The position numbers were made by a program, and so were the translations under genes. The notes beneath the pieces are model-generated. The model made no database searches and had not been told where the DNA came from. It was given only the letters and a program-made list of their open reading frames with translations. DNA of 64,000 nucleotides. Source: Cohaesibacter haloalkalitolerans (lineage in GTDB: Bacteria > Pseudomonadota > Alphaproteobacteria > Rhizobiales > Cohaesibacteraceae). The DNA lies in NCBI RefSeq assembly GCF_003574655.1, contig NZ_QNUM01000001.1, forward strand, positions 248,001 to 312,000, written 5' to 3'. Below, piece after piece: positions 24,485 through 62,356 of the stretch (position 1 is the first letter of the stretch; each line of letters starts with the position of its first letter).

Positions 24485-24934
24485 ATGGACAATTTGGATA
24501 AGATAGACCGAAATATCCTTGCAATTCTCGCAGATGACGGTCGCATCACCGTGACCGAGCTGGCGAAAAAGGTCGGTTTGTCCAAGACACCGTGCCAGAT
24601 CCGCATGCGCAGACTGGAGGAGGGGGGCTTCATCCGGGGCTATGGCGCCATTCTCGATCCGGAGAAGCTCGGCGAGGGCCATATCGCCTTTGTGCAGGTG
24701 ACCCTCAGCGACACCCGCTCGGAAGCGCTCAATGCCTTCAACGAGGCCACGCGCCATATCCGCGAGATCGAGCAATGCCACATGATTGCATCAAATTTCG
24801 ACTATCTCCTGAAGATCCGCACCCGCGACATGAGCAACTATCGCAAGGTGCTGGGCGAAAAGATCTCCGCTCTTCCCTATGTCTCCCACACCTCCACCTT
24901 CGTGGTGATGGAAAGCGTTAAGGATAGGGGTTAG
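24485..24934 (+). CDS. putR: Lrp/AsnC-family regulator, likely proline-responsive PutR
   Basis: A 149-residue Lrp-family protein. The N-terminal helix-turn-helix reads LDKIDRNILAILADDGRITVTELAKKVGLSKTPCQIRMRRLEE and is followed by the linking segment GFIRGYGAILDPEKLG. The C-terminal RAM effector domain contains IREIEQCHMIASNFDYLLKIRTRDM, typical of amino-acid-sensing members. It is divergent from putA, the arrangement of the proline-dependent activator PutR in Agrobacterium and Rhodobacter. The start at MDNLDKID was chosen because the domain begins there; the open frame extends 28 codons upstream without homology-like sequence. Confidence 0.88.
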   Translation: MDNLDKIDRNILAILADDGRITVTELAKKVGLSKTPCQIRMRRLEEGGFIRGYGAILDPEKLGEGHIAFVQVTLSDTRSEALNAFNEATRHIREIEQCHMIASNFDYLLKIRTRDMSNYRKVLGEKISALPYVSHTSTFVVMESVKDRG

Positions 24935-24990
24935 AAACAATTTAAGGTTGTCTTGATAGATGTAACCAAACGCATTTGTCTGGATGTTTC

Positions 24991-37124: not shown

Positions 37125-37689
37125 GGCATTACTCTCGGCTTTAAAGAAATGATGAATTTATGAAATTATTAATTTTCCATTAAAATATTTATATCACAGC
37201 AATGAATGGAAAGGCGATTCCCCAATTGGAGTCTATCAGTATTTTTTATTAGGCTGATATGACATGGCCATGAAGCCGCCAGTCTATCTATATTTTGGCC
37301 AGTGATTGGCAGAGTCTTCCGCTGACAACTCTACTTAACCTGATGAACCACAGAGTCATCATCTCGCAGGAATGATCATTACTTTCGGAGTGCAGAGTCT
37401 TGCTGACAGAAAAGTCTTTCAGATCCAGAGAAGAACTTTCCATCCCAAGACCTGAGAGTCGGAAAGGCGCCAGAATGCCGGGCTTTGCCACTCCTTTTCT
37501 GAACTCGAGACCCATCAATTCCTTGCAAACCTGGCCGATATTGCCTTGGCGACCATGCGTCGATGCAATTGTCAATTGACCGCTGATCCACTATCATCCG
37601 CTTCAAGTCCGGCGCAGGCCCGGTCCGGTTTGAAACCGCCACCTTCGGTCGTCGGAACGCACTCCCTCTTCAAGCAGCAAGGGTTTCCC
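37125..37689. other. Gene-free AT-rich interval with one CtrA-like site
   Basis: Between the divergent DUF3592 and pyruvyltransferase genes lie 565 bases without a convincing gene. The left 130 bases are strongly AT-rich and contain TTAA-N7-TTAA at 37169-37183, a perfect CtrA-type full site, about 45 bases upstream of the DUF3592 start. A TATCAG/CTGATA inverted repeat lies near 37225-37260. The right half is of average composition and shows nothing clear. Confidence 0.5.
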
Positions 37690-57758: not shown

Positions 57759-57816
57759 CATTGCCGCTTCATTGCCGCCGTTAACGGCTTGTTAATCAGT
57801 TTCACGTGAATCCAGA

Positions 57817-60080: not shown

Positions 60081-60677
60081 TCAGAATTCCAATCCCTGAT
60101 GCTGGCGCAGATAGCCAAGAAGGGGCAGAAGGGGCAGGCCGAGAATGGTGAAATAGTCACCGTCTATCTGTTCAAACAGCTGCACACCCAGCCCTTCCAG
60201 CTGGTAGCAGCCGACACTGGACCGCACCTGATCGCCCACTCTTGCCATATAGCGCCCGATCTCCTGTGGGCTCAGAGGCCGCATGGTGAGGGTGGCCGTC
60301 GAGACGTGACTCCAGAGGATTTCCCCACCCTTTGCACAGGCCACTGCCGAATGCAGCTGATGGCTTTGTCCGCAGAGTTCCAACAGTTGTCGGCGGGCGG
60401 CGTCCTCATTTTCCGGCTTGTTGAAGCGTTTATCCCCAAAGCCCAGAGTCTGGTCAGCCCCGATCACCAGCGTGTCGGGATGGCGGGTGGAAACATCCAT
60501 CGCCTTCACTTCCGCCAGCAGGGTGGCAATATCGGCGGGTGGTGCACCAGCCTCGACCAACGGCTGTTCTGCTGCCCGTTCATCCACTTCGGCAGCAAAA
60601 GTTTCAAAGGACAGTCCGGCATTGGACAGAAGAGACGCCCGTGCCTGACTTTTCGAAGCGAGAATCAATGGAATCAT
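60081..60677 (-). CDS. maf: Maf-like nucleoside triphosphate pyrophosphatase
   Basis: A 198-residue Maf protein, a house-cleaning pyrophosphatase for modified pyrimidine nucleotides (dTTP/UTP or m7GTP, depending on subtype). It starts LILASKSQARASLLSNAGL, has LVIGADQTLGFGDKRFNKP with the catalytic acidic residues, and a C-terminal CYQLEGLGVQLFEQIDGDYFTILGLPLLPLL. It is the leftmost gene of the operon that starts at the origin-side end, and its start lies at the edge of the gene-free origin candidate. Confidence 0.94.
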   Translation of the reverse strand: MIPLILASKSQARASLLSNAGLSFETFAAEVDERAAEQPLVEAGAPPADIATLLAEVKAMDVSTRHPDTLVIGADQTLGFGDKRFNKPENEDAARRQLLELCGQSHQLHSAVACAKGGEILWSHVSTATLTMRPLSPQEIGRYMARVGDQVRSSVGCYQLEGLGVQLFEQIDGDYFTILGLPLLPLLGYLRQHQGLEF

Positions 60678-60938
60678 GAAACTGGTCCAAGCTGTAAAAG
60701 GTTGGTTCGATGTTTAGAGCAACGGGCAGCGAAACGAAACGCCCTTTGTGGGTCCTTCCCCCTCAGTTTGTCCAATAGTGCCCTATCCGGAGGACAAACC
60801 CGCAGAGTTTGGCCATTTTCTTCATCAAACTGTCTTGAAACTGGCTTATTGACAGCCCGATGAGCGATTCTTCCCCAGGGGCTGTGGGCAAAGTGGGATA
60901 AACAGGCGGTTTATTCAGAGTTCACGATTTCATGCTCG

Positions 60939-61047
60939 TTAACCATTTTTTAATCCCCAAGCTCGATTGCGCAATGAGCGAGTTGTTAACACTCTGTTTA
61001 CCAAGGTTAACAAACAGTAAATACACAATTTGTTAAAAATTGCTCAA
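60939..61047. promoter_or_regulatory. Cluster of four CtrA-type binding sites
   Basis: The CtrA full site is TTAA-N7-TTAA. A perfect copy is at 60939-60953. Copies with one mismatch are at 60986-61000 (TTAA-N7-TTTA), 61007-61021 (TTAA-N7-TAAA) and 61033-61047 (TTAA-N7-TCAA). Spacing from start to start is 47, 21 and 26 bases. In Caulobacter, CtrA bound to five such sites in the origin blocks initiation. Confidence 0.6.
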
Positions 61048-61227
61048 TAGTTGTCTTCCAAACATACCCGGATTTGACCACATTGCAGGGCGCAGCTTTC
61101 TGCGGCGTGCGGGACTTGTCCCCGTAATCCCAAAAGGCTGTCTTGGAATTGGTAACCGGAAAACCACAGTTGTTCATGACGCGTTGTGGGGAATTTGTGG
61201 GCGAAAAAGAACCCCCACAATCCACGG

Positions 61228-61275
61228 CCTAAAAGAATAAACAAAAGATTAAACTAAAATATTTTATTAGGAAGT
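61228..61275. other. AT-rich block upstream of hemE
   Basis: This block is dominated by A on the plus strand and ends with TATTTTATTAGG about 50 bases before hemE. It is the most likely unwinding element if the region is the origin, and may also contain the hemE promoter. No better -10/-35 pair was seen. Confidence 0.4.
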
Positions 61276-61324
61276 TTGCTGGGAATCGTGCTCAATTCGG
61301 CCTGCAAACGGGGAGACAAATATC

Positions 61325-62356
61325 GTGATCAATCGACGCTTGATAAACGTTCTGAATGGCCAGACCGAGAAGACCCCACCCATCTGGCTGATGAGGCAGG
61401 CGGGACGGTATCTTCCCGAATATCGTGCCACCAGAGCGCAGGCAGGTGATTTTCTTTCCCTTTGCTACAATCCAGATCTGGCAACGGAAGTGACGCTGCA
61501 ACCCATTCGTCGATTTGGCTTCGATGCAGCAATTCTCTTCTCGGATATTCTTGTCATCCCTGATGGACTTGGGCGTTCGGTCAGGTTCGTTCAAGGGGAA
61601 GGCCCACAGCTTGATCCGATTTCTCCTGAAGAAATCATGGATCTTGACCCTTCCAAGGTGATTGATCATCTCTCCCCGGTATTCGAGGCGGTTGGCAAGA
61701 TCCGTCATGAGCTGCCGGAGGAAACGACTTTTCTTGGCTTCTGTGGTGCTCCCTGGACCGTTGCGACCTATATGATCGCCGGGCATGGCACTCCGGATCA
61801 GGCGCCGGCTCGTCTGTTTGCGCGCAAGCATCCCGAGGTCTTCGAGGCGTTGATCAATTGTCTCGTTGAAGCTTCGATCCTCTATCTGGTCAAGCAGTTG
61901 CAGTGCGGTGCCGATGCGGTACAGATTTTCGACAGCTGGGCTGGCGTCTTGGATGATGCGCTCTATGTGACGGCATCTCGTGATCCTATTGCCAGAATAG
62001 TGGCTGGCGTGCGGGCACAAATCCCCGATGCAAAGATCATCGGTTTCCCAAAAGGGGCTGGGATGCGGCTTGAGGATTTTGTCTCGGTGACCGGCGTCAA
62101 TGCGATCGGGCTCGACTGGACCGTGCCACTCGACTGGGCGCGGGACGCTCTTCAGCCGAAGGTGGCTTTGCAGGGCAATCTCGATCCGACCCTTCTGATG
62201 TCGGATGAACGGCATCTGGATGAGGCCATCGACCGGATCATGGCCGCATGGAGCAACGGGCCTTTCATCTTCAACCTTGGTCATGGCATTTCCCCACAGG
62301 GTGATATCAATCTGGTTCATCGTCTGATAGATCGTGTGCGGTCCTATCACGGGTAG
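61325..62356 (+). CDS. hemE: Uroporphyrinogen decarboxylase
   Basis: Removes four carboxyl groups from uroporphyrinogen III in haem synthesis. The 343-residue protein has the UROD signature PPIWLMRQAGRYLPEYRATR, AAILFSDILVIPDGLG, GFCGAPWTVATYMIAG, and the second signature GFPKGAG with a conserved C-terminal FNLGHGISPQGDINLV. The start is GTG at 61325 with GGGGAG upstream; there is no ATG nearby. Its upstream region is the origin candidate, as in Caulobacter and Sinorhizobium. Confidence 0.97.
   Translation: MINRRLINVLNGQTEKTPPIWLMRQAGRYLPEYRATRAQAGDFLSLCYNPDLATEVTLQPIRRFGFDAAILFSDILVIPDGLGRSVRFVQGEGPQLDPISPEEIMDLDPSKVIDHLSPVFEAVGKIRHELPEETTFLGFCGAPWTVATYMIAGHGTPDQAPARLFARKHPEVFEALINCLVEASILYLVKQLQCGADAVQIFDSWAGVLDDALYVTASRDPIARIVAGVRAQIPDAKIIGFPKGAGMRLEDFVSVTGVNAIGLDWTVPLDWARDALQPKVALQGNLDPTLLMSDERHLDEAIDRIMAAWSNGPFIFNLGHGISPQGDINLVHRLIDRVRSYHG

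Follow-up and report, generated by a model that had tools for sequence, protein, structure and literature searches.

Several CtrA-type boxes lie close together in the spacer between a maf family gene and hemE in Cohaesibacter haloalkalitolerans, a locus that bears on how CtrA couples replication to the cell cycle in bacteria other than Caulobacter. We analysed this spacer within a window of 64,000 nucleotides (G000:C11:248001-312000, that is, genome G000, contig C11), in which it corresponds to C11:308.7-309.3 kb; coordinates without the contig prefix are those of the window. Read from the sequence, the locus suggests that CtrA may directly decide when chromosome copying can begin in this bacterium. 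We consider it likely that the spacer is the chromosomal origin, that its CtrA sites are genuine, and that phosphorylated CtrA (CtrA~P) on a conserved pair of them holds back DnaA. We infer CtrA binding, DnaA exclusion and an effect on timing from features established at the sequence level, namely the boxes, their conservation, the adjacent DnaA-like boxes, the origin context and an encoded CtrA whose DNA-binding half is near-identical to that of Caulobacter.

The first-pass annotation had described one perfect and three single-mismatch copies of TTAA-N7-TTAA at 60939, 60986, 61007 and 61033, and a pattern scan recovered exactly these four. All lie on the forward strand: the perfect box 1 (TTAACCATTTTTTAA, 60939-60953), boxes 2 (TTAACACTCTGTTTA, 60986-61000) and 3 (TTAACAAACAGTAAA, 61007-61021), and the CtrA-like box 4 (TTAAAAATTGCTCAA, 61033-61047). 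A fifth, weak CtrA-like box with one mismatch (TAAACAAAAGATTAA, 61238-61252, forward strand) lies 87 bp before hemE. Boxes 2 and 3 form a pair whose starts are 21 bp apart, about two helical turns. The annotation had also called the cluster striking, a judgement that the counts bear out. Across the 852 kb of contig C11, to which the cluster counts refer, 57 sites carry at most one mismatch, and the maf-hemE spacer is the one place where four fall within 110 bp; three do so at one other place. Dinucleotide-preserving shuffles of the 647-bp spacer contained 0.53 sites on average; of 5000 such shuffles, 2 equalled the cluster by placing at least four sites within 110 bp. Allowing one mismatch, we counted 13 sites in the window where 4.2 were expected, and none of 100 shuffles reached 13. 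The remaining 4.16 Mb of the genome were scanned for perfect single sites and for 21-bp pairs with up to two mismatches, and the pair pattern occurs twice genome-wide, once in the maf-hemE spacer and once on contig C21. Spacing also discriminates: perfect sites on C11 number 11 when the spacing is 7, with 10 of these placed in intergenic DNA by a crude open reading frame mask, and 0-4 at each of 12 other spacings (2-6 and 8-14), which suggests that this genome uses the TTAA-N7-TTAA box. As a separate observation, CtrA-like boxes elsewhere overlap in an 11-bp register with one TTAA-like half in common, at 24931-24956 and 37158-37183 of the window and at C11:796178-796203.

Could such a cluster have arisen by chance in DNA rich in adenine and thymine (A+T), with no function at all? 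The spacer is indeed 54% A+T, while guanine and cytosine (G+C) make up 50-62% of each 2-kb block in the window, and perfect boxes are not in overall excess in the 5.01-Mb genome, where 58 were counted (about one per 86 kb) as compared with 68 for the same pattern read backwards. Against this stand the shuffles described above, the prominence of spacing 7 across the order, and conservation. In a genus set of 18 genomes (this genome and 17 other Cohaesibacter), the 21-bp pair is present in every one at -308 to -355 relative to hemE, each box with no more than one mismatch. Box 60986 has one mismatch in 15 of these genomes and is perfect in three; box 61007, which has one mismatch in the window, is perfect in 14 of the 18 and within one mismatch in the others. 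When the pair's 16 half-site columns were slid along the genus alignment, their true place ranked first of 377, and this rank held with 12 genomes after removal of six close relatives. Conservation already contradicts the chance reading, which we regard as extremely improbable.

The same alignment separates the four boxes from one another. Among 398 placements, half-site column conservation ranked box 60986 fourth and box 61007 seventh, with 60939 at 152 and 61033 at 186. The expectation that these are functional CtrA boxes is therefore best sustained for the deeply conserved pair and less so for its neighbours, since box 60939 is specific to one clade (perfect in nine of the 18 genomes, with 2-5 mismatches in the other nine) and box 61033 is poorly conserved (at most one mismatch in seven of 18). 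A counterpart of box 61238 with at most one mismatch occurs at -77 to -88 in nine of the 18. Three named Cohaesibacter loci (L005-L007), with 82% identity in hemE, are the same contigs as G001, G006 and G007 and so are not independent of the genus set. The gene ppsR lies in the hemE spacer of seven genus genomes and is absent from it in 11, including this one; the pair is kept in all 11, and all nine genomes with box 60939 belong to those without ppsR in the spacer. More broadly, ppsR (DUF299) borders the hemE spacer in most of the Hyphomicrobiales loci examined, and it is not found in the window's own spacer (60678-61324).

The protein expected to read these boxes is encoded. One close CtrA orthologue is present, 81% identical over 227 residues to a Caulobacter CtrA query, and its DNA-binding half is almost unchanged relative to that query. 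Other regulators of this type are also encoded, the second-best protein sharing 40% identity with that query, and one of them might in principle use the boxes in place of CtrA. The CtrA orthologue with its near-identical DNA-binding half is the sole close protein, and the box agrees with TTAA-N7-TTAAC, the CtrA consensus obtained by chromatin immunoprecipitation sequencing (ChIP-seq) in Hyphomonas, as given in an excerpt of PMC7200025. We accordingly judge a different response regulator of the same subfamily to be very unlikely as the user of these sites.

The genomic surroundings make the spacer a probable chromosomal origin, a reading based on gene order, a nearby step in GC skew, a cluster of parS-like sites and conserved DnaA-like boxes. 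The spacer is bounded by the maf family gene on the reverse strand (60081-60677; NCBIfam NF002690, 269.1 bits against a cut-off of 269) and by hemE, encoding uroporphyrinogen decarboxylase, on the forward strand (61325-62356; NCBIfam TIGR01464, 395.9 bits). NCBIfam confirmed hemE, maf, aroE, coaE, dnaQ, secB and hemJ among the flanking genes, and the order hemE/maf/aroE/coaE/dnaQ/secB fits an origin context. GC skew on C11 changes beside the spacer from about -0.01 to about +0.07, with the step located by a one-step fit at 313 kb and by bootstrap at 310-316 kb, and in sampled stretches of a single-contig relative (G011) the skew also switches at hemE. With up to three mismatches to the parS consensus, eight of the nine parS-like sites on C11 lie within 305-321 kb; four of them fall at C11:314085-314213, about 5 kb from the spacer, and this downstream cluster is also present in the three named Cohaesibacter loci. 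A parS pattern with two free positions had no match genome-wide, whereas the mismatch-tolerant scan of C11 did find the cluster. The idea of a hemE-side origin carrying CtrA boxes, put forward in the first-pass annotation, thus gains from the conservation, the CtrA orthologue, the gene order, the parS-like cluster and the skew step.

Two further observations concern the surroundings of the spacer. A further perfect CtrA box lies between secB and dnaQ (57781-57795, forward strand, by pattern scan), 2 bp from a parS-like site within the same mismatch limit (AGTTTCACGTGAATCC, 57798-57813, forward strand); in the named locus L005 the parS-like site at 1554 has no adjacent CtrA box. The two arms of C11 to the left and right of 309 kb also differ in strand asymmetry, positions 1-61000 of the window lying in the left arm. 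GC3 skew (GC skew at third codon positions) differs between leading- and lagging-strand genes on C11 by 0.23 on the hemE side and by 0.01 on the other, and that other arm is also weaker in samples of G011, G010, G008 and G015, though not in the family outgroup G018 (L154-L173, L254-L293).

On both sides of the pair the spacer carries DnaA-like boxes that deviate from the consensus TTDTCCACA. Upstream are TCTTCCCCA (60869-60877, forward strand, two mismatches), which aligns as TC-N-TC-(C/A)(C/A)CA, and the partly conserved TTGCCCACA (60883-60891, reverse strand, one mismatch); a forward-strand GATTC, a CcrM-type GANTC site, at 60866-60870 is invariant in the alignment of the 18 genomes. The right half of CtrA box 1 overlaps TAATCCCCA (60951-60959, forward strand, two mismatches), whose core (A/G)TC(C/A)(C/A)CA is found in the 18 genomes. 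Downstream follow the partly conserved TTGACCACA (61074-61082, forward strand, one mismatch) and TTGTCCCCG (61116-61124, forward strand, two mismatches), within which TTGTCCCC (61116-61123) forms a run with each column at least 88% conserved. Closer to hemE, DnaA-like boxes make up a nested inverted repeat (61184-61226, no strand assigned), in which TGTGGG at 61185 and 61196 faces CCCACAA and CAATCCAC (61218-61225). The repeat consists of conserved runs in the 18 genomes and could fold as a hairpin, with an alifold energy of -10.85 kcal/mol compared with a column-shuffle mean near 0, and folds of -8.8 to -23.0 kcal/mol in the individual genomes. The A+T-rich tract that follows it (61227-61275, forward strand), as read from the sequence, is a candidate unwinding region.

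These elements allow a mechanism to be proposed. CtrA~P would occupy the pair in the middle of the origin, probably as side-by-side dimers, and in that position could prevent DnaA assembly at the weak DnaA-like boxes to both sides. Dephosphorylation or degradation of CtrA would then release the origin. In the window's own clade there is also the added box 60939, in direct overlap with a DnaA-like box.

Several results weigh against an origin gated in this way. The skew check proposed in the first-pass annotation did not place the cumulative minimum exactly at the spacer: on C11 it falls at 236 kb, 72 kb away, owing to the near-flat skew of the left arm. The spacer also falls just short of the bootstrap interval for the skew step, on its left side. 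In the 645 bp immediately preceding hemE, none of the 18 genus genomes has a DnaA box of full strength (TTDTCCACA), so that the part of the model that concerns DnaA depends on degenerate boxes; 117 other spacers carry 1.06 full-strength boxes on average. Of the two further family members examined outside the genus, G018 has a single perfect box at -373 and G019 one at -310, and neither has the pair. Upstream of ctrA, 700 bp were scanned and no box within the one-mismatch limit was found. In Caulobacter, weakening all five origin boxes is described, in an excerpt of PMC4468827, as causing a mild perturbation of the cell cycle in constant laboratory culture and sensitivity to antibiotic pulses. 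Finally, spacing and conservation fit transcriptional CtrA sites as well. A related pattern was set aside: strong DnaA boxes and CtrA boxes are anticorrelated over the 117 spacers (Spearman -0.37), and the correlation vanishes in 40 genomes spread across families (-0.0004), so we treat it as phylogenetic confounding.

The last of these adverse points leads to the main rival, a CtrA-controlled promoter, by which CtrA would turn on or off a transcript starting in the spacer, either a small RNA resembling CcnA or a leader of hemE, and would affect replication secondarily. The pair keeps a roughly constant distance to hemE, and downstream of it lie the conserved TTGTCCCC, the conserved inverted repeat and the weak CtrA-like box at 61238, which counts in favour of this reading. 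The repeat, however, consists of DnaA-like boxes and fits an origin equally well; Rfam returned no match up to E = 1 for the region 60600-61400, and alifold gave 0.00, hence no conserved fold, for the 90 bp that follow the pair (61022-61112). We regard the promoter as an unlikely explanation, one that deserves serious consideration, and gating of the origin and a CtrA-controlled transcript are not mutually exclusive.

How far does the feature extend beyond the genus? The 21-bp pair, with up to two mismatches, was searched in 249 genomes of the order and its places compared with those of hemE. All 10 genus members in this sample have it at hemE, as do eight of the 10 genomes from a second family (f25), in which G140 and G236 lack it. 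Per-genome totals of the pair pattern are uninformative, since the reversed control is often equally or more frequent, and only the place of the pair carries information. Single perfect boxes were counted in 40 Hyphomicrobiales genomes of 22 families, chosen before their spacers were seen from 245 with a hemE match; in 12 of the loci the hemE starts were set from the listed places of the hemE match, and three lacked a ppsR or maf neighbour, so that 600 bp were taken instead. At spacing 7, 23 perfect boxes occur in 20 of the 40 hemE spacers, with 12 of the 22 families represented, compared with 0-2 of 40 spacers at each of the 12 other spacings. In two of these families the box lies close to hemE (-26 and -65), so the boxes across the order need not all be the same element. 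A set of 77 named loci, mostly from Rhizobiaceae and neighbours and possibly overlapping the 40-genome sample, shows a slight excess at spacing 7, with a perfect box in eight loci versus 0-5 at other spacings. One record among the loci, L023, titled Bacillus subtilis strain SK6B4, contains an alphaproteobacterial hemE locus (60% identity, with ppsR and maf upstream) and is probably misnamed or contaminated.

For comparison beyond the order, we sampled 40 of the 113 genomes that gave a match, chiefly those listed first, and 37 of them had a ppsR or maf neighbour. A perfect box occurs in two of these 37 syntenic spacers from the rest of the class versus 0-2 at other spacings, and in none of the three class loci without such a neighbour, for which 600 bp were again taken. 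With 20 of 40 spacers inside the order and two of 37 outside it, the hemE-spacer box looks like a trait of Hyphomicrobiales, and the sampled distribution suggests that CtrA boxes at this origin were gained separately from Caulobacter. A broader proposal, which we hold tentatively and at slightly short of even confidence, is that Hyphomicrobiales acquired direct origin control by CtrA early and independently of Caulobacter, that many of its families have it, and that it disappeared or weakened in the lineage of Rhizobium, Mesorhizobium, Brucella and Sinorhizobium.

Among known systems, the Caulobacter origin Cori offers the closest parallel. An excerpt of PMC1914354 gives it five CtrA sites and places it between hemE and COG1806/ppsR; CtrA is thought to exclude DnaA there, and DnaA boxes of reduced affinity are described, according to the same excerpt of PMC4468827 cited above. 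The Cohaesibacter spacer likewise lies beside hemE in a genome that encodes CtrA and carries several TTAA-N7-TTAA boxes, here with degenerate DnaA-like boxes nearby, one of them overlapping box 1; it differs from Cori in its four listed boxes, in the 21-bp pair as conserved core, and in having maf rather than ppsR as neighbour. The CcnA RNA is placed at the Caulobacter origin in the portion of PMC8959179 used here, and the excerpt of PMC2877005 treats promoters. In Hyphomonas neptunium, the ChIP-seq study excerpted above (PMC7200025) reports a CtrA signal adjoining the origin, with the motif TTAA-N7-TTAAC, and each of the four boxes listed here is preceded by G, giving GTTAA, the TTAAC form on the other strand. 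That excerpt describes one ChIP-bound site next to the origin, whereas the boxes of Cohaesibacter are predicted from sequence. The predicted origins of Rickettsia, Wolbachia and relatives are mostly intergenic and on the hemE side, with predicted CtrA, DnaA and IHF sites, as excerpted from PMC1914354; these bacteria differ in being intracellular and in having zero to seven CtrA boxes, all of them predicted only.

Our literature search found no open-access paper combining Cohaesibacter and CtrA, and among the open-access matches listed no title or abstract start dealt with CtrA boxes in Hyphomicrobiales origins. Sinorhizobium meliloti belongs to the same order as Cohaesibacter, and its origin lies beside hemE as well. 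In the excerpt of PMC4433202 that origin is described as lacking CtrA motifs and as not bound by CtrA, unlike the Cohaesibacter spacer with its CtrA boxes. The pair across the genus and a second family, together with perfect boxes in half of the sampled order spacers, provides a testable case of direct control within the order of S. meliloti. If the proposed gating is true, CtrA would act directly at the origin in a group whose well-studied relative reportedly has no such sites, and lineages with and without origin CtrA boxes offer a natural comparison.
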